Made by a program: the position numbers and the translations under genes. A stretch of DNA of 64,000 nucleotides. Origin: Pezizomycotina sp. ARF18. Its lineage: Eukaryota; Ascomycota. The stretch spans positions 28,391-92,390 of the forward strand of contig AZLU01000168.1 in the NCBI GenBank assembly GCA_002224055.1, in the 5' to 3' direction. The notes beneath the pieces were generated by a model that was not told where the DNA came from, did not search any database, and saw only the letters and a list, made by a program, of their open reading frames with translations. Positions 28,780 through 56,201 of this stretch are shown one piece after another (position 1 is the stretch's first letter; every line of letters starts with the position of its first letter).

Positions 28780-29203
28780 TTACAATCTTGACTTGCCCTC
28801 TGAGACTGTGATCTCGCTCACGAGTGCCTCCCAACCAGTCGCCAGCGCCATCGTCGTAACCATCGGGTTTACCCGGACGCCGTCGGGAACAGAGACGCAT
28901 CAGCGACGTAGACGCCCCGCTTACCGTAAGCTTGCCTTTATCGTCTACGACGCCGAGCTTCGAGGTACCCATGCGAGCCGTGCCCATCTGATGTGCTGTA
29001 CCGAAGGTATTCGGGTTGGGCAGGCCGTTGTACTCTACCTCCTTGATAACTTCTTGAACGCGGTGCTATCGGCCTCCTTTGTAGCATTTTCTTGCTTGAC
29101 GTAGGTCGGAGCTCCTAATATGGGTAGATTGATTTCGGTTGCACCAGCTGTCGGGTACAGTTATGCCGTTAGCCCTATCCCAATATCACAATTTGAAAGG
29201 AAC

Positions 29204-29240
<37 letters not shown>

Positions 29241-31470
29241 CTTGACGCACACCGCATGCAACATCTTGCAAGCCCCAACGAGAGTCTCTAGCATACTCTT
29301 GCGGTCCTGAGCGGAAGGGACGTAATCGATGTGGTAGTCACCCTTGGAGTCAATCCATATTCGCCCGGACCCTTGGTCGCGGTTGACGAGCACGTGGCCG
29401 GCCATTTGGTTGAAGGTAAGGAGCTTCCGCTTGTAGTCGAGGGCTCCACCCCACTGCATCGCGGTCATGCCGATGCCCGGCAACATCAGCATGCCCTCGA
29501 TCCTCGTGCCGTATCCGTTGCCCGTGTTGCCGTCGAAGTCAGTGTTAACCGCGGTGAGGATGCCACCCTCCCAAGGACGCTGCTCCTTGGCCAGACCGAG
29601 TTCATGCACATGGCTGGATGGAGGTGCAGATTTCTTCTAGATTGTAGTTCTATATACAAACGTTAGGCCATAAATGCTTATAAGGGTGAAGAAAAAGGAA
29701 TACGTATCTTACCTTAACGCCACTTCTCAACAGAAGAGCTGGGGTATTAAGAGTTCCTGAAGCTACGACAACCTTGGAAGCCTTGATGACAACGTGCACA
29801 CCTCTTTCGAATCCTGCCCTTCCTCCACCTGCCCTTGACGCCGTAAGCCTGTCCATTTTTATCAAACAGTACTTTGTCCGCCTCGAAACCTTGAATGAAC
29901 TTTGCGCCGCGGTCCCTAGCATCAAGTAAGAACGTGCGGGCGGTGCCTTGCTTGCCGCCTCCTCCAGGGAGATCAGAGTGGCCGTTCCCCTACAGCCGAT
30001 GGTACAGTAGTGTCCGCAAACCTTGGCATGTTCTCGGGATCGATAATGTTCTGGGGGACGGCTTGGACACTTTGCCCGAGCAGATGGCTCCCCCTGAGCG
30101 TGGCGTAATTCGAGACATTGTGATCTTTCTCCAGGAAATTGACCACGGACATTTTCTCGCAGACGTAATCCATGCATTCCTGGAACTCGCTCGTCTGAAC
30201 GAAGTCGAGGCCGTATTTCTCCGCCCATTCCTGGCGTACGGATGCGGGAGCTGCCAGGAAACGCTCCAGTTGATGGTACTACCACCTCCCCATGCACTGT
30301 ATTCACACGATAGCCATTAGCCATCTCCTAGGGGCTTTTTGGGGGAAAAAATTGATTTGAAAATTTACCTCCGGCTAAGACGGTAAAATTACCGTCTTCT
30401 GTTTGCGCCAGCGCTTTCTTCTCAAACAGGCGCTGTAACCCTTCTCGCTCTGTTCGTGGCAATTCGTGCGGTTCGAACCAGTATCCCTTGTCGACCACCA
30501 TGACCTGGTGGTGGGGCAGGTCCGATGCGAGACGAGACGCAATGACACCGCCGCCGGAACCAGATCCGACGACCAAGATGGAAGTCGTCAGTTCAATTGG
30601 TTCAGCTTCGCGCGAACCTTAGAGCTCTTCGAGCTTAAGGCTTCGATGTCTTCGAACTTGAAGGTTGGTTCGGCGGACGCCTTTTCAGCGGAAGCCTTCA
30701 AGGCCGCATCCGCCTCATCGAGAACGGATACCCCGGAAACTGCATGGCCTTGTGCGCGATAGGGCTGGCGCGCTGGTAGCCGAATTTCCTAATGTCTACT
30801 CGTGCACAGAGTGTTAATATATTCCAACGGCATATATCTCTTCATAGAAAGGAAAATAATTTGAAAAATAAAAAGGGTAGTTTCGAAGGCACTAGATTTC
30901 TGGGAGACACTAACAGCAAAAGTCTTGTTATTTTCTTAAAAGTGCCTGTCCGGGCTGTAGCCCACCCTCTGAGGATAACCTCGACATCCTTGCGCGGAAG
31001 CTGAGCGATGGGTGTTGAGTAGCCAGTGAAAAGTAGGGCGCCAATCCGCGTACTAAATACAAATATTAAAATGTCAACCATGTGAATATGTTTTATACGA
31101 GGACTTCCAATTGTAAAAATAATATCAAAGAAATCCACTGAAGGTTTGCAATTTGGTTGAAAGAAACGCACTTGAGAATATCGAGTAGAGTCTTAAGCTC
31201 TTTTATCTTCTCTCGGGGATATCATTATTGAAAATATTTGGACGTCCTCGACGAATTCCTTGCAATCGCTGGCGGCCTCCTTTGCGAAGGCTTCAATGAC
31301 GGCGTCATCTACGCTTTTTACGGCGAAGGCCTTGTATGCCCTTTTCAACTCCAGCGTCTCTTCTGGAGTAAGGGGGCTGATGATGGCATCAAAATATGGA
31401 AAAGTGTGTTCCACTGAGCGTCAGAGAATACACTATCCTGCGGCCGCTCGTATACTCTGATGTTCGCCAT
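28780..31470 (-). CDS. GMC oxidoreductase, long-chain fatty alcohol oxidase type, with PTS1
   Basis: An FAD-dependent GMC enzyme of the FAO group, which oxidises long-chain alcohols to aldehydes and makes H2O2. The start at 31470 gives MANIRVYERPQDSVFSDAQW; an N-terminal FAO helical domain continues in another frame (DAIISPLTPEETLELKRAYK). The FAD dinucleotide motif is VVGSGSGGGVIASRLA at about 30540. Further family pieces: ECMDYVCEKMSVVNFLEKDH, CTIGCRG, VHVVIKASKVVVASGTLNTP and MLMLPGIGMTAMQWGGALDY. The C-terminus has the conserved NPMVTTMALA then, in the same frame, ends GKSRL; SRL is a peroxisomal PTS1 tripeptide. Introns lie near 31020-31190, 30790-30950, 29630-29710 and 29155-29245 (containing a long A tract). 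Frame changes are needed near 31380, 30600, 30330, 30000, 29850 and 28920. Neighbourhood suggests a role with the carboxylase block at 38-49 kb. Confidence 0.85.
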
Positions 31471-32249
31471 CGCCACCAAAATAAAACAGTGCGCCGCTAA
31501 GGCCAAGAAGCGAAAGATCGGATGGCAAAAAAAAAAAAAAAAAAAGAGGAAATCAAGATATTACTTATCCACAAATGTATTTTCTTTCTCGTTTCTTCTG
31601 GAGTATAGGTTAATACAGGAAATAGCTCTGAAGAACAAAAGAATATCAAGAATCAGACAGGGGGAGTACAAGAGAGGGCAGTGATTGTAACAGTAGTTTT
31701 AGGTGGCACCGCTAGCGTTCAAATATATAAAAAGCGAAAGCATCTGTGAACTAATTTATACCGAGGATATTCTGGAACATCGCCGCGTGCGTGTCAGTTG
31801 TGCGATACAGTAGTAAGTTAGTCAAGGAACCACAACCCAACATTCTGGGGGGGGCGGGCGGGTAAGATAGCGGAGTTTGGAAACGCTCCGATCTTCCCCC
31901 CCCCAAAAGCATGAACTGCCGAGTTCAGGGATCATTATTTTAATCAAAGGAGAATCAATGAAATGGAGATGAAATTTTAATAAAATGGTATGACAGGCCA
32001 ATTACAACCGCTCCTGTTCAGGCCCTGTTTGAATGTCGTGCTATTCAACCTCTCTCTGATCGCTGAAGTTTTTTTTTTTTTTTTTTTTTTTTTTTCCCAG
32101 GGAAGCTCTTCTTCCAGTTGAGATAACTTTTCTGCGTAGAGACAAGCCAATGAATGTATGGCTGCAAGGGATGAAGCGAGCCATCTGTCACCTTTCATGA
32201 CTTGTATCTACTACCACTACTCAGTTATATTTGATAATCTTTATTCATT

Positions 32250-32287
<38 letters not shown>

Positions 32288-34584
32288 ATATATCTAATGA
32301 CTCTCGTGCTATTGTTTTTTTCTCTCCCCTTTTATTCCTTTTCTCTCCTTCTTTCTCATTTCTTACTGTACCGAGCATATTTTCCTCGCTTTGAGACCTT
32401 GGGATCAAAATTAATCGGGAGAAAAGAAATGTTACCATCACCCACTATGGGGAAGTAAACCCCCCAAGGTCGCGTCGAAGAGTAAAGGTAATCAAAGGCC
32501 CATGCGGTTTTTAAGCCGGGGAACGAGGGGTTCAGAGTGGGGCAAGCTGTAATTGCGGGGTTATTTTATCCTGATGCTGCCATTAGTAGTATTAGGAGTA
32601 TTGGCGAGTTGACTTTTCGGCTTGCTTCCAAAATGGACTTCAGGCAAAACTTCAGTACATTATTTTTTAGGCACAAACCTACCTAGCCTCGTGAGGAAAT
32701 GACGGGGTCCCAGCTTTTTTTTTTTTTTTTTTTTTTTTTGTGCCTATGCTCAAGTTCTTGGTGTGAAAGGAGGTAAGATCTTTTCGATATCCATAAAGAG
32801 TCCTTTGCTTAAACACTTTCTTATCTTGGATATCAGCCGTGGTAGCGTTAGAAGTGCACCAGTCTAGCTGCACTAGAGCAGCTAGATCTGCAGAAGGCGG
32901 AGCTTTGGGCCGGAAGGAAGCCGCCCCGATCCATAGGCAAGTCGGGGGTGCGTAATAGCGCTATCCGATTTTTGAGAAACGGAAGCGGAAGACCAGGGAG
33001 CACCGAGACAACACGTACCCACGTTATTATCATACGCGGCCCGCAAGTTTCGTGAGACATAGACAAGCTCTCATGCATGTAGCGTGACTTCGCTGAAGCG
33101 TTCAAACAGGGGGAAAAAAAAGTAGCTTTCCGGTATATTTTATTGAGCTTCGAGAACCAAGATAAGGAAAAGAAAAAAATTAGAGGAAAAAAAGGCAATG
33201 CACATATATAATTGCAAAGACCTGTTGGGTTCCGTAATAGACGGATATATAACGACTGATTCGAAGGTTATAGTAGTATACTCTCGAAAATGGCAAACCA
33301 TTATCAACTTAAGGACCTGTGAAATGCCAATGGTATATCTTATGAGGAAAGGTTGTTTACTTATCTGTTGTTAACCTTCCAATGCCTGCTCGCTGGTGAA
33401 TATATGCCTGTTGAATATCGTTAAGGTACATCACTCCCAATTCCATTTATTTGTATTCCGTCTAGATGGTATTATCACCGTTATTGTGAGCGCATGCAAC
33501 TTGATGATGTACAGCTGGAAGGTAACTTTGTAAGATACTTTACTGGTGGCTGTATCAGTAAAGGATCCGGATCCTTTCTAAAAGAAATCTCAAATCACCA
33601 GCTGGAATATTTTGGAATGCATTTTCTTCTAGACCTTGGGCACCTAAAAATCCCAGAGAAGATCTAGAGAAAGGACAGAGAGGAGAAAGGCGGACGGTTA
33701 TACTACCTCTTATTATTTCTAATAAATGCACACACACACAACATATATATATATATATATTCTTAGTATATATAAGCATACATCATTCAAGCAATACCCG
33801 CCCACCTAGTGGTAATGATATATCTTAACTTGATTGATTGCAGTGGATGAGTACTTACTAATAGCAATGGGCGCATCGTTACTAAGTATCTCTCTGTCAT
33901 AATGTCCCTCTATCCCTCTCGTCCCCTTCTTTTGAGTTTTCTTTTTTTTTTTTTTTTTGTCGTCGTCGTCGTCGTTGTCGTCGGTGGGCGGATACTTCTA
34001 ATTTGATATATGTATATATGAGATGTCTACCAAAATAAACTAGAAGGGAGGGAGGATGATAAAAAAAGATTATTCTCCTCTTATAAACGGACTAGAAGAA
34101 GGAGAGGAGAGAAGAAGAAAGCAGTTTTTCTCTCTCTCGTCCTCGATTTTTGGATATTTGTCGATTTCCTTCTGTAATTTGCGATCTTCTGTCTTTTTTT
34201 TTTTTCGTTCCCAAACTCTTCGTCGTCCCCGTTCCTTTTATCCATTCACCCCTTTTCGAATTTCTACCTGTTTCTATTTTAAATTCACTGCTGGCAGAGC
34301 TATCCTACTTTTGCTCATTATCTTCTCAACAAGGACCTTTCCTTTCAAATTCCTCCAGGGTATCACAGACCACATATACCGACAAGACCAGTAGTCATAG
34401 AGGTATAAACATATAAATACCTCAGAGCAGCTTCAATCACTGCTGTCTGTTCCCTTCCGAAAGGTCTGGTCCTTCTTTTATCCCAAAATCCCAAAAATGC
34501 TACAGACCTGGACAGTACTGACAATAAGTATAAATCATCTAGAAGTCCTTACTTTGCCAGTCTGGTCCGATCAAACGTGCAACA
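31471..34584. other. Gene-poor 3.1-kb divergent region
   Basis: No supportable gene. It contains A/T tracts (near 31528, 32071, 32717 and 33940), a CT microsatellite (about 32250-32284), a G-rich/C-rich pair near 31845-31905, a CA/TA repeat near 33728-33760 and a GTC repeat (about 33959-33983). Open frames here are low-complexity. It is the shared upstream region of the alcohol oxidase gene and the unknown gene at 34.6 kb. Confidence 0.55.
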
Positions 34585-37306
34585 ATGACCTCGCTCTTCA
34601 AAGGCGCACTAACAAAGAGTTCACCGGGCCGAAGAAGCCGCTTCCCCGGTAAACCGCCTTGGGGTAAGGAACGAAACAGGGGGCATAGAATTTGTCTCCC
34701 CAAATTCACCTTTTCTACCGTGCCTCTTTTGCTTTGATTCCCTGTTATGCGTTCGTTTCTGTATCATTATTGTGTCCATTCTCTCTGCCCCTATAGTCGG
34801 AAGCTAAACGAACTTGATATTGGTTGAATTGCCATGTCTTATAGCCAGATCCCGGGATCCGAATGCCAGTTTTCACGGTCCGAATTACTTCAAGACTTTG
34901 AGGATATACACGACCTCTGAGAAGACATCTTGGGAGACTGTGGTAAGATCTGTAAAAAAAAAAAAAAAAAATTATGATCAGCTCTAACTCCAACTCTCTA
35001 TTTTTCGTCAAGCGTGGCTAACTCAAATATCTTACTCTTTACAGGACGTAGTACAGCTGCAGGGGTACAGCCCTGACATCGACCGTATTATCAGAGCAGC
35101 CTTGGACAATGAGCCTGTGAGAGGGAGCATCTATCCTCTGGACCTATCTGAGCTCCGGGAGCATCTTTTCTACGGAGTCTGGCAGGTCCCGAGAGTTTTA
35201 GGTGTCCGACCAGGTTGCGTTCACAGAAAAGAAGGCTCTCGAGCGCATGTCGTTATTTTCAGTATCTGCAAAGAGCAGCCCTCCAAAAGAAAGATCTTTC
35301 AAGTCGAGGATGTCATCGTGGTCACGTCCATAGCGGCGTACTTCAACATATTCAATGACCTCACTTGCGACAAGAGCCTGGGTTTTCGTGAAACTATCGC
35401 AAAGTATCTCTCCCCCTATAGAAACGGCACCAATCAGGTACGTCGCTCGAACCCTTCGTAGTCCTTAAAAAATAGTAGAAAAAAGGAAAAGTAGAGAGGA
35501 GCCGTAGTGGTATGAATCGATCAATAGTTTATACTTGCTGATAGATTTCCCCCAAAACACAGGTGAACCTTTTTGGCCAGATTGTTAAACATCCGTCGTG
35601 TGCAGTTTTGCTGTTTGAGGGGGCAGAAGTCCTTCGTCATGAAACTTTGTTCCAGGAGGCTGGACGTATGTTGTTGGCACTTACGAACATATAAGGGATA
35701 ACCCTGACGCGTTCAAGTGGTTTCTGGAGGCAAGTAAACCCCCATCCGCCCAGCCCACACCCTTCCCAGCAGGCTCGGTCGTCAGGATTTTTCGGCATGA
35801 GGCTAATGCTTCCATTCCTGGGGGGCCTTTTTGCAGTTACTGGACAGGAATACTATCGACGCGGTTGAACTTGCCTACACGCAGGTCAAGAACTATCTTC
35901 GGTCGACCATGTGGTTCCAACTTCGGTCCTTGAATTTCGAGGATGAATTCCGCATGCGGGAGATGCTCGATGGTTCTTCGCCAACCCGTATCTCCAGGGA
36001 TTCTCTCATGAAGGCTAGATACTTCATACTGCGTACCCTTGCCGAAAGTGAAGATATTCGTCGTATGGCTGGAGACAAGGGAGGTTGGTTGCCTAAGAGC
36101 TGGTGGATAGAGGTTCCGGGAGCCGAAAAGAGATTTTCCCGAAGACTGCATATCCACCCAAGGGATCACAGTCCAGAAACCTACTTCAGACGTCAAGCAC
36201 GGGTAGAAATGGATGGTTTTAATCCCCCCCGTATCCTCCTCCCGACATGTCCTCAAGGCAATCTATTCGAACGAGGAACTCTGGCACATCATTCATGCTT
36301 CGACTCCAACGGCTCCCACAGGGAAGTCCTCCAAGCGAGACAAATTAAAGTCGCTTCTTCGAAGCGTCCCTATAGTCGGTCAGCAACTTCAGAAATGGAA
36401 AACAAGAAGGCTATAGAAAATCTAAAGGTTTCTCTGAGCGGTAAAGAGAATAAAGAAAGCCAGAACGGCAATAAGACGGGCGACTCGCAAGCCAACGTTA
36501 CTGCTCACCCATTAGACTCAGAATTGGACTTTCTCCGTGACCAGGTCGGCGTATACCTTGAACCTCTCGTGGGCGATGGCACTTTCCAAGGAACTGGTCC
36601 CGACTACCCAAATACCCGAACACTCCTTTGCGAGGCGAAAAAGGCAGTCCTATTGGCCGTGGCCCTAGAAACTCTAAAAATCCTCAGCGTCCAGCTTCCT
36701 GCAGCACCGAACGCTTAAAGCTGATGGATTCGATCAGGGGAGACTGGGGTGTTGAGTACCTCCTATGCGGCAATCTGATGGCGCCAGTTGGTTACCACGA
36801 CTCCCTGAACTCCAAAATATACTTTGGCCCGAACAAATCTACTTCCGCCTTGCAGACGAACGGCCAGGGCAGAGAAGAGTTTTCTCAGGGAAGAACAAAT
36901 CCGTCAGCCAGTTAACAGTATATAAACCGCCCCAGGATGTCTCATCTTCAAGCTCATCTGATAGGACGAGCTCCGGACTCAGTGTTGCAGATCAACTGTC
37001 TGCTAACATTGCAGATAGCATGGCTTCAGGTGCTTTCAAAACCCCCGAGGAACGTGCGCTAGATGATGGGAGGGCTGAGTCTCATCAGCAGTCTACCCAA
37101 AATACAATTAGTGATGGTGGAAGGTTCAGGAGATGGGCTTACACCAGGAGCCAGGTAGTGATAACATTATGGCAAGCCTCCCAGATCAGAGGAATGGCGT
37201 GAATTCTGAGCAGACCTCTCCGTCGACGAGATTCAAAGAGCAAAATACCACCGGCGGCCCACAGATCAATGCTCTCAACTTCAAAACCCTTGGCCTTGGG
37301 CTATAA
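34585..37306 (+). CDS. Unrecognised multi-exon protein
   Basis: Family not recognised, but gene structure is strong. The start at 34585 gives MTSLFKGALTKSSPGRRSRF. Introns at 34664-34844, 34943-35044, 35438-35562 and 35730-35836 join in phase; the last begins GCAAGT and is a GC-AG intron. The N-terminal half reads FHGPNYFKTLRIYTTSEKTS, DIDRIIRAALDNEPVRGSIY and VEDVIVVTSIAAYFNIFNDL. Then come WTYVVGTYEHIRDNPDAFKW and VELAYTQVKNYLRSTMWFQL, suggesting an alpha/beta folded core of roughly 400 residues. A basic stretch (KSSKRDKLKSLLRSVPIVGQ) follows, and the C-terminal third is Ser/Gln/Asn-rich and disordered (DVSSSSSSDRTSSGLSVADQ), ending NALNFKTLGLGL at 37304-37306. Frame changes are needed near 35200, 35640, 36225, 36420, 36640, 36790 and 37120. 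Confidence 0.6.
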
Positions 37307-38127
37307 TAAATAATCGTTTGCTGTTTACTAGGTGGACTAGGTAATTATGGAGTTGAATCGATCGAATCATCGGAAAGTTGTTTATTTGGGTTATTCAGAA
37401 ATAATTCTCAATTGAGATGGACTGTTACCACTTAACTTTTTTTCCCCTCAGAGAGAGAGAGAGAGAGAGAGGTATGGCTGTTATACGGTTTGCTTTTGTT
37501 TCCTTTACTTAATATTCAGCTTCTCCTTTTCTCTTCTTTCTTTCTATGATTCAACCGGCGTTCTAAAGATAAACATGGGATATGAGATCCATTGTATATT
37601 GGGTCTTTTCTAATAATTATTATTAAGGATGGGAAGTTGTTGGTTGTATACATTCATGTTTTGGCTTTTTTCCCTCTCAAATGCTATGTTTCAGGAGGCC
37701 CATTGTTTCCCTTTCGGCGGACGATTCATTTCTTGGTCGCGGGGGCGTTTTTTCTTTCTCTCGTTCATATTGGCTTCTTTGGATAAGTTTTGTTGTAATA
37801 CTGGGAAACAGAAAGCGGATAATTGGCATGCCTTCAGATTTCTTTTTCGCTTTTTTCTTTTGGCGGTCTATCGGGTTGACTACTATGCTCTTTGTAATTT
37901 CTTAACAATTTAAATAAATATCGTAGATATGGTCTCGGTTATTGGTACAATAGTCGAGTATCGTTAGAATCGGCAGTGGTTAAAAGCACTAGATTGGGAA
38001 TAAGCTATAAGGAAATGCTACTTCTATTGGATATCACGAACAAAACATCTGATAGATGCCGAAAATAAGACTGGAAAAGGCTTTTGTTTACAGAGTAGTA
38101 TATATTACTGTCGAAAAGTGAGCTTCT
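37307..38127. other. Convergent intergenic region
   Basis: Spacer between converging 3' ends with a GA microsatellite (about 37451-37471). Hydrophobic open frames at 37592-37913 are overlapping frames of the same T-rich DNA and carry no motif. Confidence 0.6.
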
Positions 38128-40135
38128 TTACAGCCTAGATACGCCCCTAAAGCCTCTGTTCCCTTCCACCCTAGCGCCCTTCTTGACGATCTCCAAGCAC
38201 ATCCCTAAAACCGTCCGCGTATCCCGAGGGTCGATAATGCCGTCGTCGATGATGCGGGCGCTGGTATACCAGGCCGACGACTCGTTATCGATCTGGGCCT
38301 CATAAGCGACGTCGCTTCGTTATCATTTCCTCCTCGATTTCAATCTTCGCCCTCGCCGCGGCCTCCCTGGCTATCGTCTCCATGACGCCACTAAGCTGGT
38401 CGGGCCCATGACGAGCACCGGCTTTGCGGCCACGAGAACAGGAAGCGCGGGTTGTACGCCCTCCCACACATTGCGTAGTTACCCGCTCCGTACGACGCGC
38501 GCAGATGATGCTGATATGCGGCACGCCCGAATTCGAAACCGCGTTGATAAAACTGGCTGCCCGCTTTAATAATCCCTTCCCTCTCCGTCTTCTTGCCGAC
38601 CATGAAGCCCGTGACGTTGTGCATGAAGATTATCGGCATGTTGCCGTTGTTGCAGAGGCGGATAAACTGCACCGCTTTTTCGGCTTCGGGGGTGAATATT
38701 ACGGGTGACTGGTTCGCCACGATGCCCACCAGGTGGCCGTGGACGTGCGCCCACGCGCACAGCAGCGTGGGGCCGTAGAGTGGCTTGAACGGCTGGAAGC
38801 GAGAGTCGTCGACGATGCGGGCGATTACTTCGGCCATGTTCATGGGCAGGCGAATGTTCGTGGGCACAATCCCGAGGAGCTGCTCGGGATCGTAGTGGGG
38901 TTCAAGGACCGCTGCGGGGCGCGGATCGGGTTGATCACGCCTGCGGGTACGGTCTGCGCGCGTTTATCGTGAGGACCCAGCGCCGGGCCATGTCCAGCGC
39001 CTCGAATTCGTCGATGGCTAGCGCATCGCTTACGCCGGAGACGGTGCTGTGCATGTCAGCGCCGCCGAGAGTTTCGGCGTCGGAAATTTGCCGGTTGCCA
39101 TTTGACCAGGGACTTTCGTATCATGTTAGATCTGAGTACACTCACATCACGAGAATAGACGTTCAAGATTACTTACGGGCCTCCTAAGAAAACCTGGCTC
39201 TGGTCCTTGATGAAGATCGTATAGTCACTCATGCCTATATTTTCCGAAGAAAAGTTCGATTTAGTGAAAATTCGATAGATTTAAACCTCAAAGGGTTACG
39301 TACCGGGCTGGTAAGCCCTCCTGCTGTTGAGCTGCCGAACACGACAGCACAGCTTGGAGTACCCCTTTGCGAGCGCTGCGCAAGGTCTCTGAACATTTGG
39401 CCACCTGCGCGGAGTGAGAAGCGTGTATATATCAGCGTTTCTGCGTCCTCTTTATGAAATAAAGATAGCAGAATATATTACCTCTGTGAAAGACGGCGTA
39501 CTGTTGTGGCAGGTTCGCTCCTGCAGACTGTACAAGACTGATTATGGAATATCATTTTCATAGCAATCTGCGAACTTCGCATGCTTTCAAGACAGTCATC
39601 TCGTTGGAAGAACCACCGTCGAGAGTCGGTATGTTCGCTGAGACCATCACTATTACCCCACTGAAATTGACTTTCCGTCAGCCCAAAATAAAAGTTATAC
39701 CACCGCGTAAAGGGCGGAAATAAGGCGAAGCCCGATTGCTTGCTTACTGCACAAGACCGATACCCGATACCGAGCTCGCGGACGGAGACGAATGTTTGAC
39801 TTCGTACTGCCAGAGGCGAAATTTCCAAGAACGGCGAGTCATCGTCAGCACTAAGGCTATTCTGTCTCTCGCTATAATTTAAAGAGGACACCTTCAGTTA
39901 GTGAATCCGCCGTTCGCATATGTCGGATAGCAGAAGAGCCTTTTTACCTGACAGCATCCCTCTCGCGTGGTGCTCGTGACGTATTTCTCCTCGCCTTCCC
40001 GGCAGCCCACTCCAGAGCGTCATCGAACTTCTTCAGCAGCGCAGGCCAGCTCTCCGCGTTCTCTTTGTAGGATTCCGCCGTCTCGACGACGGTGGAGACG
40101 TGCCGTGGGAATGTGCGTGGCAGCGCTTCGTCCAT
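38128..40135 (-). CDS. Acyl-CoA carboxylase, carboxyltransferase (beta) subunit, with PTS1
   Basis: The carboxyltransferase subunit of a biotin-dependent acyl-CoA carboxylase of the methylcrotonyl/geranyl-CoA group. It moves CO2 from biotin on the alpha subunit to a branched enoyl-CoA. Landmarks: SAGANLPQQYAVFHRGGQMF, FGSSTAGG, GMSDYTIFIKDQSQVFLGGP, ETLGGADMHSTVSGVSD (out of frame), VNRSPVIFTPEAEKA-like text with ANQSPVIFTPEAEKAVQFIR, HNVTGFMVGKK, YGAGNYAMCGRAYNPRFLF, GPDQLSGVMETIAREAAARA and IIDDGIIDPRDTRTVLGMCL. The protein ends RGFRGVSRL in an unbroken frame; SRL is a PTS1 tripeptide. Introns: 39113-39176, 39236-39303 and 39405-39481, plus one near 39660-39750. It lacks the FPDRxHFGRIF motif of mitochondrial MCC beta. 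The start at 40135 (MDEALPRTFPRHVSTVVETA) has no strong presequence; an out-of-frame Arg/Ser-rich extension from 40278 exists. Frame changes near 38320, 38420, 38540, 38780, 39090 and 39840. Confidence 0.88.
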
Positions 40136-40838
40136 CGTTTATTTCTGATATTTCTGATTTTCGATATATCGAGTCGAGGAAGATTGAAACACCGTGATAG
40201 TGCTGCAGGCCAGGACGTTCTCGTATACAAAGACGTTTGAGGGATGCGAGACGGGGGATACGGAAGTGGTTGGTTCAAAAGGCTGGTTAATTAGGATTGT
40301 TATTGTGATCTCAGTATAAAGCGCTTTTCAACCGCGGTAGGCAGGTCGCTCTTTTTTAGCGGGAGCTTCATGGCCCACTAAACACGCAAAACCCTCCCGG
40401 AGTCGCTGAAACAGTGCAAAGACCCCAGAGCCCCCCCCCGGGGGGAGGTCTCACGACTAAGCGGGAAGGTTGTTAAAAAAAAAAGAGCCGAGGCAAAAAA
40501 AAAAAAAAAAAAAAAAAAAGAAAGATCAACCATCGCGGAACAGAATAATAATTAATACTAATACACCACCGCCCGACTTGAACATCTCTTTTTCTCCACG
40601 GATTTCCTCCTTCCCACAAAAAATTACTTTTTTTAGCCCAAACACGGCTGAAATCTCCAGCACTTAAACGACGGAGACTTCTTTACGTTCCGACCCTCAA
40701 TGAAATTACTACTAGATCGGACCGAGCACATGTGTACTTCAAGTGTACATGTCCAGTAAAATCAACAGTAGTTCTCGTTTCTGGTAATTTTTGCAGACGA
40801 TATCATAGTAATAGCAAAAAGTTTGAGAAGCTTCGAAG
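40136..40838. promoter_or_regulatory. Shared divergent promoter, carboxylase beta / AtuA
   Basis: This region lies between divergent start codons. It contains a C9G6 run (40431-40445) that could form a short GC hairpin, the hexamer CCGAGG at 40488-40493, an A tract at about 40495-40519 and a palindromic region ACATGTGTACTTCAAGTGTA near 40728. CCGAGG matches the core bound by fungal fatty-acid regulators of the FarA/CTF1 type, but one hexamer in 700 bp is expected by chance about one time in three, so this is only a candidate. Confidence 0.4.
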
Positions 40839-42875
40839 ATGGCGAAGGATTATGTCAGGATTGGATGCTACAGGTGAGTGAGCAAAGCTGCGTTTTAATT
40901 TATTTATATTGAATAATCATGGAGCTAACACTAGATTCCTTGGTGAAGTGCATTCTGGGGCGATTCGATCCATGCTGCGAGGCAGCTCGTGGAAGCTCCA
41001 GATGCGAAGCTTGACTACTTGTGGCGGATTACCTGGCAGGTTCGGACTCTCTCTCTCTCTCACACAGCTCACTCTAGCTTTTATGATATTCCATCTTCGA
41101 GCTAAAATCTCGTTTCCTTCATAACAGAGGTCACGATGGGCCTCCTGGCCCGGGCTTCCAAGTTCAGCGGTTCGAACCGCAAAGCCCCCGGTTTTATCGG
41201 CGAGTTCGCACGCTCGTCCTCGACCCACTCCTCCGAGCATCATTTCGCAGAACATCAGGGTCGTCACCAACGCCGGCGGGCTGGATCCCGTCGGTCTGAA
41301 AACATTTATCGAAAAATTGGCGCAGAAAAAAGGTCTGCAGGACAAGGTGAAAGTCGCCGCAGTGTACGGAGATGACATGTACGATCTCAAGGACGAAATC
41401 AAGCAGAAATATGCGGGAGGCAAAGGCTTCGATCCGTTAAACGGCAAGGGGTAGCCGAGCCCGTGCTAGGTGAGACGGACAAGCTGCTATCGCTGAACGC
41501 GTACATTGGCGCCGAAGGGATAACCAAAGCGCTGGCTGCTGGAGCGAAACATAGTCGTTACGGGCCGGTGCGTGGACTCCGCGTCCGTGGTCGGGTCGCT
41601 GGCGCACGAGTTCGGTTGGTCATTTAAACCCGATAAAGATTTGGACGCTATGGCTTCCGCTTCCCTTGCCGGCCACATTTTGGAATGCGGCGCGCAGGCT
41701 ACCGGAGGTAATTTCACGGATTGGAAGCTCGGTGCGTTCTCTGAAAACGGCGGTGGGCGAACATGGGTTACCCCATCGTTGAGTTTAATAGGTCGGCTGA
41801 GTTTACCGTCACAAAGCCGGCAAAGACGGGAGGTATTGTCACGGTCAATTCGGTCGGCGAGCAGATGCTCTACGAAGTGCTAGATCCGCAGAACTACCTC
41901 TTACCCGATGTCATACTCGACCTATCTCAGGTACGCTCGAGCAGACCGGTAAAGAAAGAGTGAAAGTCAAGGGCGCTAGAGGGAAACCTCCTACGCCCTG
42001 CTCAAGTGTACTGCTATATCGACGGCAGACTGGAAAATCGCGGGAGAGCTTGTCATTATCGGCGCTGAAGCTCGAGAAAAATCGAGGTCCTCGGGGAGGC
42101 TATCGTCCAAAGAACGAATGCAATAATAGCTGCACGGAAACTTGCGCCTATCACCGAATACCGCATAGAACTCATTGGTGCCGAGCAGGCTTTTGGAAAC
42201 AGGGGTCTAATGAACGACAGCAGAGAAGTTATCATGCGATTATCTGCCCTACACTCATCTAAGGTTGCTTTGACGTCATGGTCAGGAGTTTTACTCCTTC
42301 GCGACGTCGTCGGCTCCAGGTTTCACCGGCTTAACTGCAGGGAGGCCCGCGCGAGTCCAAATTTCAGCACGGCGTCATTGCTAGTCCCTAGAGCGGTCGT
42401 CGTGCCGAAGCTGGTTAGGCGACTCTTCCTCGCCAATGTCCCTTCCATTTATGAGGAGTCTTGCGCAGCTCCCGTGCCGAATAAGACCGCTATCACTTTA
42501 AAACATTCCGCACCCCCTGCAACGCCTTCACCGCTTCGCTTACTCAGGGTAAGCTACTCTTGGACCTTTGCGTAGGAAGGTCGGGCGACAAAGGCGATAG
42601 TTCGAATGTCGCTTTTATAGCCCGCAGCCCATATCTACCCCACGATGCTAAGTGAGGTCACGCCGGAACTGGTTCAGTCTGCGCTTGGCCATTTCATCGA
42701 GGAAGTGGAGCATCACGCGGTACGAGGTCCCCGGTGTGCACGCCGTCAACTTCGTCGTCACAAAGTGCCTTGGTGGCGGTGGCCTGCGAAGCCTCAGGCT
42801 CGATAAGCAAGGAAAGGGATATGCCCAGTTGTGTCTAAGTACTCTACGTTACAGGATACTGCTGCTAAACTTTAG
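40839..42875 (+). CDS. AtuA-family (DUF1446) protein, candidate PTS1
   Basis: The acyclic terpene utilisation AtuA family has no known catalytic activity but is carried in bacterial terpene-degradation operons. The start at 40839 gives MAKDYVRIGCY; intron 40874-40948 restores the family motif SAFWGDSIHAARQLVE, and intron 41040-41127 joins ADYLA to EVTMGLLARAS. Further family text: RVVTNAGGLDP, GLQDKVKVAAVYGDDMYDLK, VTGRCVDSASVVGSLAHEFG, ASLAGHILECGAQATGGNFT, MGYPIVEFNRSAEFTVTKPA, GGIVTVNSVGEQMLYEVLDP and EYRIELIGAEQAFGN. The C-terminal ferredoxin-like AtuA domain reads CVGRSGDKGDSSNVAFIARS, then HAVNFVVTKCLGGGGLRSLR. Near the end one frame gives DTAAKL and a stop at 42873-42875; AKL would be a PTS1. 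In the frame of the preceding motif the stop is at 42919-42921 instead. Frame changes near 41018, 41210, 41455, 41760, 41930, 42120, 42290 and 42760. Confidence 0.85.
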
Positions 42876-43219
42876 AACTTTTGAAGCTTTTGAATACTTA
42901 GAAAATGTGTGTACATACTAAATTGCATACTCGTATTATACCCAAGTAAATAATTAAAGAAGTATACAAGCGAATATAAGTTTAGCTAGTTCCTCGTCTC
43001 GTGGCCACTCTACCTAGCAATATGGGAGAAGATGAATATTGGATATGCACGCATATAGTGTGGTAAACTTATATATATATAATGAAAAAATCGATATGCG
43101 ATAAATGGTATCTAGGTATCTAGTATACAAATATTTATTGCAGGCTCAATCTTTTTTTCAAGCCCACATGAAAAGTAAATAAATAAAAAGATATAAAAGC
43201 AGTAAAAACACACTCTGCT
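42876..43219. other. Convergent intergenic region
   Basis: Short AT-rich spacer between the AtuA-family gene and the isomerase gene. Nothing recognised. Confidence 0.6.
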
Positions 43220-44040
43220 CTATAACTTGCTCTTCTCCTTCTTTCTCTCTATTTGGCTTGTACAAACTGTTGTATGGCATCTAAGCTCTCCGTCTTGCAT
43301 TAAGTCCCTCAAGCCCTCGCACTCCCGTTATGTAGCCGCCAGCAGCTCATCCCGGTGGTTCTGCTTCATTAGGTTCTTCGTGAACTTGACAGGTGTCCGG
43401 ATACGACGATATTTCTGTTCGCGACCTCCATCACGTTCTCCAGAAACTCCGCGTTCGAGTTCGTACCTGTATCACCTTCGTGATCAGTCCCGCGTGGCAC
43501 AGCTCCTGCGCCGTCATCCTTTCGCCGGCTAGCAGCAGCGGCCGCTTTCTGGTGGCCCAAAATGTGCCGGAACGTCACGGACGAGCAACCCTCGGCGCAG
43601 AGTCCCCACTTCATGAATGGCGTGAAGAAGTACGCCGAGGGGACGGCGTAGACAAGATCGTACAGCGCTATGCTCGTCGTACCGTAACCCGCTGCGGGAC
43701 CGTTGACGGCCGCAATGAGCGGCTTTGGACACGTGATAAAGATCTCGTTGAGCTCCTTGAAAACCTTCAATCCAGCGTCGATTTCTTCGAGCGGGAGGAG
43801 TAAGTTTTAGAGTCCGTGAGACGTCGACGAGTTCCTTGCGGTGGTGTAGAATTTGCCTTCGCCGGTTTGCACGATCACGCGGACCTCCGGCTCGTCGCGG
43901 ACCCAGCGCATGGCGACGAGGAAGTCCTTCATTAGGTCTGGGTTGTAGTGAGTTGCGGACTTTGAGCGGGTAAATGTGACGAGGGCGACGCCATTGTTTA
44001 CGTCGATCCGGACGTTCTCGAGCTTCGGTGGGTTGACCAT
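43220..44040 (-). CDS. Enoyl-CoA isomerase/hydratase-like protein with PTS1
   Basis: A crotonase-fold protein. The start at 44040 gives MVNPPKLENVRIDVNNGVAL. Family text: GEGKFYTT followed in another frame by GKELVDVSRTL; then CPKPLIAAVNGPAAGYGTTS, SIALYDLVYAVPSAYFFTPF and GLCAEGCSSVTFRHILGHQK. The EGCSS pattern is typical of peroxisomal delta3,delta2-enoyl-CoA isomerases, which reposition double bonds during beta-oxidation of unsaturated acids. After VKFTKNLMKQNHRDELLAA the assembled frame stops at 43328. With one base added, the family-like NERECEGLRDLMQDG continues, ending KKEKSKL with stop at 43220-43222; SKL is the canonical PTS1. Other frame changes are near 43800, 43540 and 43450. No intron evident. 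It diverges from the hydratase gene at 44.6 kb and converges on the AtuA gene. Confidence 0.82.
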
Positions 44041-44588
44041 CTTGTTCTGTCTCGCTGGTGTATTGATATGTGGTAGGAAATATAGGCCCGGTTCGAGAGG
44101 TTGAGGAATCGATCCAGCCTTTGTAAGTATTTTTTTTTTTGAAAGGAGAATAGGCCGTCGCGACAACCAAACAGAACCAGGAAGACCTTGAGGGAGGGAG
44201 GGAGACCAGAGAACTGGGGAAATACTGTTCCCAAATAGACTGTCGTCCTAATAAGGAGCGTAAGCAAACAAGGGATTTGTTGAGATTCTCCACGAGGTCA
44301 CATCATTTTTATGCCTCGCAACTCAAAAAGGAGCAGCCCCTGCCCTCCCCATGGAGATGATACTCCCGGGTCCCGCGATATCTCTCCATCGTCACTAAAG
44401 CGATGGCTGATTTGCCGCGGGAGAAAAAAAGCTATGGCTCACTTTCTCCCCACACCAAAAATACCCAGGTTGTAAAATCATAAATAACCGAGACCTTCGT
44501 TGCAGTTGTTTTTGCTGCGCCTCTCCATCACCACGGCCAAAATTTCTTTTCGAATTAAGTTTCTGTTTTGTCTCACGTGACAATCCAG
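44041..44588. promoter_or_regulatory. Shared divergent promoter, isomerase / hydratase
   Basis: About 550 bp between two divergent crotonase genes. It contains a palindromic TCACGTGA (44572-44579), a CACGTG E-box of the kind bound by bHLH factors. It may also contain a short first exon of the hydratase, because that gene's first conserved codons follow a possible acceptor (CAATCCAG, 44581-44588). Co-regulation is inferred from the arrangement. Confidence 0.4.
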
Positions 44589-45446
44589 GACGTCTATCAT
44601 CCCAAATCTTATCAAGGCACAGAATTGGCATCAAAGCCGGAAGACCATCTGGTAGTGTCGCGCGATGGCAACGTCCTAACCTTAACTCTAAATAACCCCG
44701 CCAAAGCCAATTCCATGTCCCAGCCATGGTCTCACTCCTGAAATCTACTTTAGCCTCCGCAGCGACGGACCCTTCCGTCTCCGCCGTCGTCCTGACAGTA
44801 ACGGCAAGTTCTTCTGTACTGGGATGGACCTGTCCGCCTCTTCAGCGACCGTAGGCACCTCGCGCTCGGCTACCGCCTCTTCATCCCTCGAAAGCACGTT
44901 CTCCTCTTCGACTCCGTGGATAGCTTCCCCAAGCGACGATAGCCCTGATAAACGGCCCCTGCTACGCGCGGCGGTAACGGGCTAGCGTTCGTATGCGACA
45001 TCCGCGTCGCCGTCAAGGGTGCGAAATTCGGGCTGACCGAGGTTAAGCGCGGGCTGGTACCCGCTACGATATCGCGGTACATCGTCCGGGAGTGGGGCAC
45101 GGCCGTCTCGAGGAGGCCATGATCACGGGCAGGCCGGTGGGGGCGGAAGAGCTATTCCGCGTCGGGGCGATATACAGGTTGGCCGACGACCTGGAGGGTG
45201 CAAAAAAAGATTACCAAGGAGATACTGGCTAACTTGGCGTCTAGTGCGCCGAGGGCTGTGGGATGACGAAGGAACTGGTGAAGAGCGTTTACGAGGATAG
45301 CGCAGCAGAGAGGGATAGGAAGATCGGTGAGGCATACGTCGACATGTTGGGCCCAGTGAAGAGGCAGCGTACGGGATTGCGCAATTTCAAGCCGGAAACA
45401 GGGCGTGGATTGGGCCAAGTGGGCCATCGAGAAATCAAAGTTATAA
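44589..45446 (+). CDS. LiuC/AtuE-like enoyl-CoA hydratase with PTS1
   Basis: A crotonase-fold protein of the 3-methylglutaconyl-/isohexenylglutaconyl-CoA hydratase type. The N-terminal piece DVYHPKSYQG leads to HLVVSRDGNVLTLTLNNPAK and ANSMSQP. Then, in changing frames, come GKFFCTGMDLSASSATVG (the oxyanion and substrate loop) and FDSVDSFPK. GGNGLAFVCDIRVAVKGAKF and GLTEVKRGLVPATISRYIVR follow; the GLVPATIS motif marks the LiuC/AtuE/EchA7 group. The C-terminus contains SSAPRAVGMTKELVKSVYED and EEAAYGIAQFQAGNRAW; a last frame change gives AKWAIEKSKL with stop 45444-45446, again a canonical PTS1. The start is unresolved, and a short upstream exon is possible. Frame changes near 44715, 44790, 44940, 45100, 45260, 45350 and 45410. 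In bacteria this activity follows the carboxylase step, which matches the neighbours here. Confidence 0.82.
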
Positions 45447-46257: not shown

Positions 46258-48921
46258 ATGAAGCACCAGGAGACAGGAAGGGATCTCTTTGTCGCTCCTC
46301 TTGTTTTTGATGGCGAGGGCAGGCCGCGCATCTCGCGGCTGCTTATTGCGAACAGAGGGGAGATTGCCTGTAGGGTGATCCGGACATGCAAGAGGGTCGG
46401 AATCACTTCGATCGCGGTTTACGCAGACGTGTGAGTTTTGTAATTAATCTTCTAGAGAGAGAGGAAAAGGGAAGAAATGGATTCATAAACTGACAAGCGC
46501 CTTTAGTGATCGCGATGCGCTCCACGTTCAGGAAGCGGACGAATCCGTCTTGATAGGACACGTTGACGAGAGACCATACCAGGACTCGAATAAGCTCATT
46601 GATGCTGCGAAGAACTTACAAGCCGACGCGATCCATCCGGGCTATGGCTTCTTATCTGAAAACACGCGGTTCGCGAAAGCTGTGTTAGAAGCCGGCCTGA
46701 TATGGGTTGGCCCAAGCGCAGAATCGATCAATGCCCTCGGTGACAAGGTTGGTAGCCTGATATTTAGGCTTTCTATTACACTACATAGAGAAGCTGATTA
46801 TATTTTTATCACCTATCTAGAGAGAATCGAAAGCGTTTCTGGCGGAAAAATCGAATGTACCTCTGATACCTGGTTATAATGGTTTAAACCAAGACCCAGA
46901 CTCTTTAGAAAATGAAGCGGATAAGGTTGGTTATCCCGTTATGATCAAAGCCAGCGCCGGTGGCGGTGGAAAAGGCATGAGAATCGTGCACAAAAAGGCG
47001 GAGTTAGTATTATTCTTCTGCTTTATCAATCTTGCTTTGCTCTAAGGAATTTGCGACTAAGGTGCTAAACCTACGCTTTTAGCTTCAAAGATTCCTTTTC
47101 CAGGGCAAGTCTGAAGCTGAGAGATCATTTGGATCTGCTCATTGCCTTATCGAAAAGTATATTGAGCAGGGAAGCACGTCGAGATTCAAATTTTGGTGAC
47201 GGCGATACCTCCATCAGCTTTTTGACAGAGAATGTTCCGTTCAAAGCGGCATCAAAAGATCATCGAAGAGTCGCCTTGCCCGTGGCTATCATCGGCTATG
47301 CGGAAACGTATGTCCAATGCGGCGCTAGAGATCTCGAATTTACTCAGATATCAAATGCTGCGACCGTTGAGTTTATTGTGGTAGGTCTAATCCTCTTTTT
47401 TTTTTGAGGTGGACATGAATAGTCAGTAACAAGGAAGCATTTGCAACTATAGGACATTAAAGAGGAGAAGTTTTACTTCCTGGAAGTAAATACAAGAATT
47501 CAAGTAAACACCCGATCACAGAGGAAGTTACCGGAGTGATCTTGTCTCTCTCCAGTTATTCGTAGCTTCGGAGGAAAACTTAAGGATCTTCCGAAGTCCA
47601 TAATATCAGTCAGGAGGGTCACGCCATAGAGGCTCGGCTGTGTGCTGAAGACCCGTTCAATGATTTCCTGCCGTGCACCGGAAAGATTCGTTCCTTCCGC
47701 AGTGCCTCTGAGTTGCTAAAAACTACCATTGACGGCGTCCGCTACGAGACCGGAATCGCTGCCGGCTCCGAGATAACGGTATATTTGACCCTTGATCTGT
47801 AAGATCATTGTCTGGGCCAGAGATCGCACAAACGCCATCCTGAAGTTGAATAGGGTGCTAAAGGCAACAGCTTGCCTTGGTTTACAAACGAACCAGCTAT
47901 TCCTGCAAAGGGTACTGAACACCCCGCGTTCGCACGTCCAGACTATACGACATCGTTCATCTCGCTTCACGGAAAAAATTTGTTCCGCCCCATAGAACGG
48001 GGCTTGTTTTCGGAGCAAATGCCGTGCTGCCCGCGCTCGTGGTTGGGCGCGAGAAGAAGAGGAGAAAGGATTCTTTCGCAAACTCACCGTTCAAGAGCAT
48101 ACCTTCTGGATTTAGGAACCAGAGGAAGGCTAAAGTCGGCGGCACCCGGTGACGCACGTAGCCTGCGAGACCCACGCGCTCGGTTACCGCTCGGTAGAAG
48201 CTAACGTTCCTGAAGTACTGGTAGAGATTGTTTCTGCTTCCGCTGAAAGGTTCAAGGTCTGGGATTTGCCGAAGGAGGTAATCCCAACTGCGCAAGAAAA
48301 GAAAGCGTATTACAATAAGGTTGGTGGACCGTTAGTCAAGAGGTATTACGCTGCTTAGGTGCGGAGCGCACGGGCACTTCTTACGACATTCGTATCGATG
48401 ATTCAAGCCTTACCAAAATTGGCGACGGGCTTGAAGGGAAGTGAAACTTTTTGTAAACGGCAGGTCTACGACGGTGTTTGTTGCCACAGGCGATATCAAT
48501 GCTGTTGAGGTCAAGGTCTACGTGCAGGCGATCGCATCGGGAATTCCGATTGCGTACAAAGTTGCCAGCAAATTGGCATGGGCCGGAAAGCTGGAAGAAC
48601 GTCTAAAGGAGGGTTGGCGAATGCTAGTAAGTACTCGTCATTATTTCATTGTTTCTAATCTTGTTGTTCTAAAATGCTAATAATATCCCATTCAGACTCT
48701 CAAAGAACTTTCAAGTCGCCCATGCCTGTAAAATTCTCCAAATACTAGCCCAGGACGGTAGCGACGTCAAGATGGGCCAGGGCCTGCTGGTTGTCGAGAG
48801 CATGAAAACCGAAGTAAGGATGGTTGCGACGACGGAAGGGAAAGTGAAAATGCACGTTAAAGAAGGCGACATGTGCGAGGAAGGAACAGTTTTGTGCGAA
48901 GTTTTGGCAGAGGAAGAATAA
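46258..48921 (+). CDS. Acyl-CoA carboxylase, biotin carboxylase (alpha) subunit
   Basis: The biotin-carrying subunit of the methylcrotonyl/geranyl-CoA carboxylase group, partner of the beta subunit at 38.1 kb. Biotin carboxylase text: [60 protein letters not shown], the ATP-grasp loop [19 protein letters not shown], and [20 protein letters not shown] across a frame change. Then come [20 protein letters not shown] and [13 protein letters not shown]. The C-terminal biotinyl domain has [12 protein letters not shown], whose lysine is the biotin site, and ends EVLAEEE at 48919-48921. Introns: 46431-46506, 46748-46820, 47003-47103 and 48627-48695, plus one near 47380-47450. Frame changes near 47180, 47240, 47505, 47770, 47910, 48050, 48360, 48450 and 48705. 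The start at 46258 gives [20 protein letters not shown], without an Arg-rich mitochondrial presequence. No PTS1 or clear PTS2 is visible, so it might enter peroxisomes with the beta subunit. Confidence 0.88.
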
Positions 48922-55200: not shown

Positions 55201-56201
55201 CCAAGCGCTAAATCGTCCACCCCGTTGGCTTCACCGGTTTTAAGCAAACATCGGTAATAGCTGAGCCTTTCGCGTTCCTTCTCAAATTCAGAGACCGCAT
55301 TTGCTCCAGTGATACGCGGATCGATATTCGAATCGGCGGTCTCCACAGGCGACTTAGGTGATGGGATCGCATGCTTGCCATCTGTCTGAACCCTGCATCC
55401 TATTCGACGGCCGCCGATCGGGGTTTCCGTCGACGCTCGAGTTATACGTCGAGCTATACACACTGGGAGACCGTAACCCGCCAGGAAGCTCTGCCGACTT
55501 TGGTAGACTTGAAGCGTCCACTGAAAGCCCGCCCTTGAGCTTTTGGAGATCTTCAAGGTCTTTCCTTAAGCTATCGCGACCCTGCTCATCATGCCCCGTT
55601 CCCTCGGCTGTCCCTGTTGACGTACGCATCACGGTACCACCTGTCGACGATTTCAGCGAGACGGCTCATGCGAGATTCGAGTTCATTTCTCTAGCAGGGG
55701 CACTCCGTATCCTTCCGCTGCCAGGTGGAGGATGAGGCAGTACGGTGCCGTTTGCTGTATTCGGGTGAACTATGCATCATCGCCCCGCCTAGGGCTGAAT
55801 TGAGAAGCGCGACTCTTCGAGTGGAGAATCCGAGTCGTCTGACATCCTGTTGGTCGGATTTGTTCTTTGGCGTTTGTGGCCGCGGGGAGCCTTTGAAGAT
55901 ACGCCCGTATAATTATCGTGGCCAGAGTTGGCGTTGTTACTATTGCTGCCGAAGTGTTGTTGCTGATGGTTGTTGGCCTTGGAATTGCTGTTTCCGCCGT
56001 TTGTATGAGAATTGTCGCTCCATTCACATGCCACACCCATCTTGGAACAGCCGCCGCACACAGGATGCTGGCGATCGCACTTTATCTTCCGCCGCCGACA
56101 GGCAAAGCAGCTATACGAAGCTCTGTTCGATGAATTGTTTCGGCGGCGTTTTGGCGGCGGAAGCGCTGTCTGCGCAGGGGGTTCTGGTAGTGGTTATACA
56201 T
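52234..56201 (-). CDS. Zn2Cys6 fungal transcription factor
   Basis: A nuclear regulator with a canonical binuclear zinc cluster at about 56020-56120: CFACRRRKIKCDRQHPVCGG then CSKMGVAC, spacing C-x2-C-x6-C-x6-C-x2-C-x6-C. A Gln/Asn/Ser-rich linker and a short dimerisation coil (LESRMSRLAEIVDRW) follow. The fungal-specific regulatory domain is spread over several frames: ILRFLPTNEQCNALYKSF, HPVIPLIHLPTFER, RRRVWWHIVYLDVQ, FDTRMPCELRDDLIG and FNGWARVMLSLQCDKAFGF. It ends with HATMILLLDLFERPNSPEAA and a disordered tail (SSPGFVDKS-like: DMSSPGPFVDKSQSADRATG). Introns near 55128-55195, 54970-55050 and 52375-52512. More than ten frame changes are needed. The stop is 52234-52236; the start is uncertain, with 56201 (MYNHYQNP) the nearest candidate. 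The target is unknown; it lies 3.3 kb beyond the carboxylase block and could be its regulator. Confidence 0.8.

Follow-up and report, generated by a model that had tools for sequence, protein, structure and literature searches.

A fungal Atu-like gene cluster in which most enzymes can be read to peroxisomal targeting-type endings

The stretch of DNA analysed here (the window) spans 64,000 nucleotides of Pezizomycotina sp. ARF18 and is part of contig C168 in the genome that we searched, which comprises 46 Mb in 408 contigs. Within 28.8-48.9 kb of the window lie six related genes, encoding a GMC oxidoreductase, the beta and alpha subunits of a biotin-dependent carboxylase, an acyclic terpene utilisation (AtuA) protein, and two crotonases, one of the isomerase type and one of the hydratase type. 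They are listed below in window coordinates, with endings that resemble a peroxisomal targeting signal type 1 (PTS1), the carboxylase being typed by reference to 3-methylcrotonyl-CoA carboxylase (MCC) and geranyl-CoA carboxylase (GCC).

28780..31470, minus strand: GMC oxidoreductase (alcohol oxidase type), ends GKSRL; start judged by eye
38128..40135, minus strand: biotin-dependent carboxylase beta (carboxyl transferase), ends GVSRL; several introns and frame changes; GCC type by its specificity residue
39316..39539, minus strand: specificity stretch of beta, VF-HR-GGQMF, with Gly at the place of MCC Phe191 and without the three-residue insertion; read over one intron
40840..42875, plus strand: AtuA protein with AtuA ferredoxin-like domain, TAAKL outside the conserved frame; start uncertain
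43220..44040, minus strand: crotonase of the enoyl-CoA delta-isomerase type, KEKSKL after a frame change; start approximate
44560..45446, plus strand: hydratase-type crotonase (LiuC/AtuE-like), IEKSKL after a frame change; start uncertain
46258..48921, plus strand: biotin carboxylase/biotin carrier alpha, ends EVLAEEE, without PTS1

The GMC gene was recognised by three pieces that match Pfam GMC_oxred_N (E 3.1e-11, 2.4e-7, and 1e-5) and by GMC_oxred_C (E 4.9e-5, 24.3 bits at a cut-off of 24.6); a GMC piece searched against the PDB gave no match up to E 0.01. The beta subunit matches Carboxyl_trans (1.3e-44), its PDB relatives being MCC and GCC, and the alpha subunit displays Biotin_carb_N (1.7e-19), Biotin_carb_C (at 47629-47935), and Biotin_lipoyl (6.9e-11). 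The AtuA gene, about 0.7 kb from the beta gene provided that its start is correctly read, matches Pfam AtuA (8.5e-23 and 3.4e-11) and AtuA_ferredoxin (5.2e-5, under the cut-off), and in the whole genome AtuA is found at this single place, with two matches that are both in the cluster gene. The isomerase-type crotonase (ECH_1, 6e-11) has enoyl-CoA delta isomerase 2 as its closest PDB relatives (E of about 8e-16), one of which is entered as peroxisomal 3,2-trans-enoyl-CoA isomerase. For the hydratase, the best readable piece (56 residues) matches ECH_1 (5.1e-8) and, in the PDB, crotonase 3i47 (6.5e-9) followed by 4zu2, a putative isohexenylglutaconyl-CoA hydratase (3.3e-7), while in NCBIfam gamma-carboxygeranoyl-CoA hydratase comes second best (8.1e-9, 35.5 bits, far below the cut-off of 426); an AtuE/LiuC-like assignment, and none firmer, is what this piece allows. 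With the hydratase called from these 56 residues, AtuA, both carboxylase subunits, and the hydratase are encoded side by side. A first-pass annotation had proposed a single locus for alcohol oxidation, carboxylation, hydration, and isomerisation, which the gene content supports. Long T or A runs occur in introns and between genes, for instance a stretch of some 30 T within the GMC gene (29207-29240), and are a likely source of assembly indels.

Five PTS1-type endings had been proposed for these genes, and all five are present in the sequence. Reading both 3' ends confirmed that GKSRL and GVSRL lie in unbroken frames: the GMC oxidase C-terminus VNPMVTTMALATGWEALVSEITVSEGKSRL (minus strand, last codon ending at 28783) is in a single frame from the NPMVT motif, and the beta C-terminus ARIIDDGIIDPRDTRTVLGMCLEIVKKGARVEGNRGFRGVSRL (minus strand, ending at 38131) is in frame with the conserved C-terminal motifs. 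The two crotonases have their SKL endings, as claimed, after a frame change past the family motifs. In the isomerase, KKEKSKL (minus strand, ending at 43223) is reached by a frame shift between the last family motif and the end, and a competing frame stops earlier (...QFVQAK) without a signal; in the hydratase, GVDWAKWAIEKSKL (plus strand, ending at 45443) follows a frame change after the GIAQF stretch. The AtuA case is ambiguous, since a frame ending in TAAKL exists (plus strand, ending at 42872) but the conserved motif LGGGGLRSLRLDKQGKGYAQ (LGGGG...GKGYAQ) sits in another. The distance from this motif to the end via the AKL frame is about that of the 15 bacterial AtuA proteins compared, a length match that leaves the AKL frame plausible but unproven. 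Judged by the frame that carries the conserved domain, an [SA][KR]L ending is present in the GMC oxidase and in beta, is reached after a frame change in the isomerase and the hydratase, and is absent from AtuA and alpha. PTS1-type signals can thus be read on four, perhaps five, of the six proteins, and for two the frame is unbroken.

How unusual is such a pattern? In the six frames of the window there are 4,542 stops (counting only those preceded by at least three residues), of which 11 follow [SA][KR]L: 2 SKL, 7 SRL, 1 AKL, and 1 ARL. The five in the cluster are both of the SKL, the sole AKL, and two of the seven SRL, all at enzyme 3' ends. We also performed a frame-free test, taking for each of the six genes the 250 sense-strand nucleotides that begin at an anchor placed in its last motif and accepting any frame. 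An ending was found in five of the six genes, at a per-stretch chance of 0.021, which gives a binomial P(≥5 of 6) of 2.7e-8, somewhat generous because the anchors were chosen once the endings were known; none of 200,000 random draws attained five. Leaving out beta gives 4 of 5 genes (P = 1.0e-6). On the stop count and the frame-free test we rejected chance, or free choice of frame, as the source of the signals, and a density far above chance even without beta points to the cluster as a peroxisomal unit.

The Pex14_N domain was matched twice in the genome (C317:17401-17517 and C249:43750-43851), two Pex14-like proteins being typical of filamentous ascomycetes. Since Pex14-type import genes are present, PTS1 import should be available. 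These matches, together with a Zn(2)-Cys(6) cluster domain at 55792-56193 (minus strand), 7 kb from carboxylase alpha, make the window look fungal; the Zn(2)-Cys(6) protein may be a regulator of the cluster. As a control for the endings, six crotonase loci elsewhere in the genome were read along the sense strand past the match, in any frame and with the wider pattern [SAC][KRH][LM]. Three have an ending (SRL in L105, SKL in L109, and CRM in L114, with 21, 61, and 23 open residues, respectively), that of L109 alone being a clear gene end. A crotonase on contig C251 ends WVGSKL, and an SKL ending is nothing unusual for a crotonase of this fungus. Malate synthase, which is expected in a fungus, was meant as a positive control for PTS1, and the MS_C profile had no match in the genome, a null that may reflect introns, frame noise, or true absence. 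HMGL-like matches number six at three places (C17, C54, and C229). The sole 3-hydroxy-3-methylglutaryl-CoA (HMG-CoA) lyase-like gene recognised, by eye, is at C229:39846-40769 (L099), and its conserved frame ends AKR. Because it is without PTS1, HMG-CoA lyase was rejected as a peroxisomal partner, and AtuA would be the better candidate for a peroxisomal lyase.

Elsewhere in the window, long open frames (up to 303 residues) lie on the plus strand at 34988-36915, between the GMC and beta genes, and the three that were scanned (34988-36715) matched no Pfam family above cut-off. In the 28 kb of contig upstream of the window, where open frames were judged by eye, we recognised nothing related to the pathway.

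The cluster carboxylase had been labelled an MCC, and this label did not hold. MCC beta subunits have Phe191 after a three-residue insertion, whereas GCC beta subunits have Gly and no insertion (PMC4673880). The part of that paper available to us numbers another residue after human MCC, and residue 191 is F in the aligned human MCC chain. The cluster beta subunit has Gly, as does the Pseudomonas aeruginosa GCC chain 5ikl, and no three-residue insertion. Phe191 and the insertion are both found in another gene of the same genome, a canonical MCC beta gene on contig C92 (28126-31536; L002), which ends GVFRM and whose specificity stretch VFPDKEHFGRIF has the MCC form in an 80-row alignment. On the Gly residue, the missing insertion, and this separate gene we rejected MCC as the identity of the cluster beta subunit. 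About 54 kb from the MCC beta gene, at C92:85071-85372, is a biotin carboxylase gene, perhaps MCC alpha.

For comparison we used 80 bacterial loci picked for likeness to the window beta subunit among the matches listed, and they are consequently a biased sample. Because two of these genes were too short, 78 of the 80 rows in the tree are bacterial; the crystallised GCC chain is outside it, but Pseudomonas genes with the same specificity stretch are included. The cluster beta subunit falls on the Gly side (44 of 80 rows; support of 98 in the Shimodaira-Hasegawa-like approximate likelihood ratio test, SH-aLRT), in a 25-row clade with Myxococcota, Bacteroidota, Actinomycetota, and Acidobacteriota (SH-aLRT 100), and the C92 protein falls on the MCC side (36 rows, SH-aLRT 98). 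The adjoining GCC clade (15 rows, SH-aLRT 100) holds Pseudomonas, Alcanivorax, Marinobacter, and Moraxellaceae, with a specificity stretch that resembles that of the crystallised P. aeruginosa GCC. Four rows in the clade of the cluster beta subunit (L031, L043, L054, and L059; Flavobacteriales) have Tyr instead of Gly and no insertion, which is neither the GCC nor the MCC form. In a topology test on 78 rows, with the long-branched L033 and L038 removed beforehand, moving the cluster beta subunit into the GCC clade or to the MCC side gave approximately unbiased test p values (p-AU) of 0.039 and 0.041, respectively, both marginal rejections. Its branch is long (1.51), perhaps partly due to frame noise. 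A place within the Pseudomonas GCC clade is unsupported, and the cluster enzyme belongs to a sister clade.

We searched the 80 bacterial loci, whose flanks differ in length, for AtuA by tblastn with pieces of the window protein, and 22 matched. All 15 members of the GCC clade have AtuA nearby, as do 4 of the 24 bacterial members in the clade of the cluster beta subunit, 2 of 4 Anaerolineae, and 1 of 37 others. In a Mycolicibacter (L022) and a Flavobacteriales locus (L023), AtuA lies with beta and alpha, followed by an acyl-CoA dehydrogenase (by Pfam), and in an Acidimicrobiaceae genome bin (L029, 4137-7817) alpha and AtuA share a single open frame of 1,227 residues, which suggests that the two work jointly. 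These three groups thus share with the fungal cluster a beta subunit of the same clade and the carboxylase/AtuA core, but no GMC oxidase was seen among the open frames scanned (some only), and they have no organelle. In L014 and L008, which were scanned in part, AtuA was not recognised by the window pieces; past the carboxylase, L014 encodes a crotonase and an acyl-CoA dehydrogenase along with an enzyme of the 3-keto-acid cleavage type.

Among the closest known systems is the Atu pathway of Pseudomonas (atuA-H; PMC4097962 and PMC9973270), which likewise groups both carboxylase subunits with AtuA and a crotonase of the AtuE kind. There, once the alcohol has been oxidised and activated, AtuC/F carboxylates geranyl-CoA, AtuE hydrates the product, and LiuE splits it (PMC4097962); AtuA has been speculated to be the acetate lyase (PMC9973270). 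The fungal cluster has counterparts of A, C, E, and F, and none of AtuB, AtuD (dehydrogenase), AtuG, or AtuH (CoA ligase) was recognised among the cluster pieces scanned. Both beta subunits have Gly at the specificity place and no insertion; unlike the Pseudomonas genes, those of the fungus have introns, PTS1-type endings, a beta subunit of the sister clade, and an added GMC alcohol oxidase and isomerase. Mitochondrial MCC, which acts in leucine degradation, has the same two-subunit architecture and is of the same gamma-carboxylating lineage, but differs from the cluster enzyme in its Phe191, insertion, and GVFRM end, and is encoded apart, on C92. GCC was described in 2011 as observed in bacteria only, eukaryotic MCC and propionyl-CoA carboxylase being mitochondrial, and the portion of that study seen states neither function nor location for the fungal acyl-CoA carboxylases that it mentions (Lombard and Moreira; PMC3199775). 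In a peroxisomal proteome of Histoplasma, MCC serves as normaliser and is not placed in peroxisomes in the sections available (PMC13343957). In the open-licence literature, from which subscription papers are mostly absent, we recognised no account of a peroxisomal carboxylase or of a fungal geranyl-CoA carboxylase. We know of no CO2-adding biotin enzyme in peroxisomes.

Taken together, these findings are best explained, at about even odds (a probability of roughly 0.5), by a cluster that is a fungal form of the bacterial acyclic-terpene pathway and is mostly peroxisomal, a reading in which we infer the substrate, the order of steps, the import, and the entry of alpha by piggyback. The GMC oxidase would oxidise a branched isoprenoid alcohol and yield H2O2, which alcohol oxidases of this kind make. 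Activation to a 3-methyl-2-enoyl-CoA, for which no enzyme was recognised in the cluster, would follow; the alpha/beta carboxylase would then put CO2 on the 3-methyl branch and the AtuE/LiuC-like hydratase would add water. The product would be split by AtuA, a speculated lyase, or by an HMG-CoA-lyase-like enzyme, and the isomerase would assist the remainder into beta-oxidation. Oxidase, beta, hydratase, isomerase, and perhaps AtuA would be imported via PTS1, and alpha, which bears biotin but no PTS1, would have to enter bound to beta if the carboxylase is peroxisomal. An H2O2-making alcohol oxidase together with an isomerase fits peroxisomes. The earlier proposal of a peroxisomal carboxylase pathway thus stands as regards PTS1 endings far above chance and Pex14 genes, and is weakened by the lack of PTS1 on alpha and by an SRL on beta that belongs to its family's own end. 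The reading "MCC in peroxisomes" should give way to that of an Atu-type, GCC-like pathway with predicted peroxisomal signals. A eukaryotic Gly-type biotin carboxylase at work in peroxisomes, with beta carrying alpha in, AtuA acting as the lyase, and PTS1 arising through small changes of GVFRM/GVARL, is a more speculative proposal that we regard as doubtful.

Several observations weigh against a mostly peroxisomal Atu-type pathway. Both SKL endings depend on a frame change, the AKL is outside the conserved frame of AtuA, and alpha runs in an unbroken frame from the biotin-site motif to its EVLAEEE end. Only 4 of the 24 bacterial relatives in its clade share AtuA proximity with the cluster beta subunit, which has a long branch and stands outside the Pseudomonas GCC clade (marginally, as the p-AU of 0.039 shows). 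Coding frames are often broken within exons, which may point to gene loss or decay at the locus. The SRL of beta is itself a form of the terminus shared by its family, which mostly reads GV-x-R-x: among the 80 bacterial homologues, 36 end FRM, 5 end ARL, and none ends SRL. The five, which end FGVARL (L046, L067, L069, L071, and L081), are from Alcanivorax, Pseudomonas, and Marinobacter in the GCC clade. Bacteria have no peroxisomes, and a PTS1-like end may therefore come by descent in this family. The SRL is consequently weaker evidence than it appears, and the case leans on the cluster as a whole. In a crystal, moreover, the C-terminal segment of GCC beta touches the N domain (PMC4673880), and by analogy the beta signal may be buried after assembly. 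In favour of the pathway, at the other end of the protein, there is an in-frame stop just ahead of the ATG at 40135 and a net charge of -3 over 30 residues, and the predicted N-terminus gives no sign of a mitochondrial presequence.

A possible alternative, although we think it rather unlikely, is that oxidase, isomerase, and hydratase are peroxisomal while the carboxylase is cytosolic or dual, its SRL being an inherited look-alike and intermediates crossing the membrane. The PTS1-free alpha, the GV-x-R-x family end with its bacterial ARL variants, and the ordinariness of SKL on crotonases in this genome would fit such a division, but none of the 80 bacterial betas ends SRL, and a density of signals that stays far above chance without beta suggests a peroxisomal unit instead. 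It is improbable that the cluster encodes an additional carboxylase of the methylcrotonyl-CoA type, serving leucine or isovalerate. On that account, the Gly of the clade need not mean a long isoprenoid substrate; the clade is apparently uncharacterised, few of its bacterial members have AtuA nearby, and GCC is very weakly active on 3-methylcrotonyl-CoA (PMC4673880). A canonical MCC is, however, already encoded on C92, and the one AtuA place in the genome adjoins this beta gene. Read errors or a decaying cluster, with accidental PTS1 endings, are very unlikely: the frame often changes in the two crotonases, AtuA, and beta, and such changes are, by eye, denser per base in the cluster beta gene than in the C92 MCC gene, but the latter has them too, so that they are at least partly general sequencing noise not peculiar to the locus, two endings are free of any frame change, and the pattern has a chance of about 3e-8 with free frames.

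For the family, the beta subunits offer a caution that a PTS1-like C-terminus can be handed down within a protein family. For the fungus, if the Atu-type peroxisomal pathway is true, a biotin carboxylase would be at work in a peroxisome. Such a route would show how fungi handle isoprenoids that are methyl-branched and so block beta-oxidation. It would also provide AtuA with a role that can be tested, and a pathway of bacterial type would clearly have been relocated to peroxisomes.

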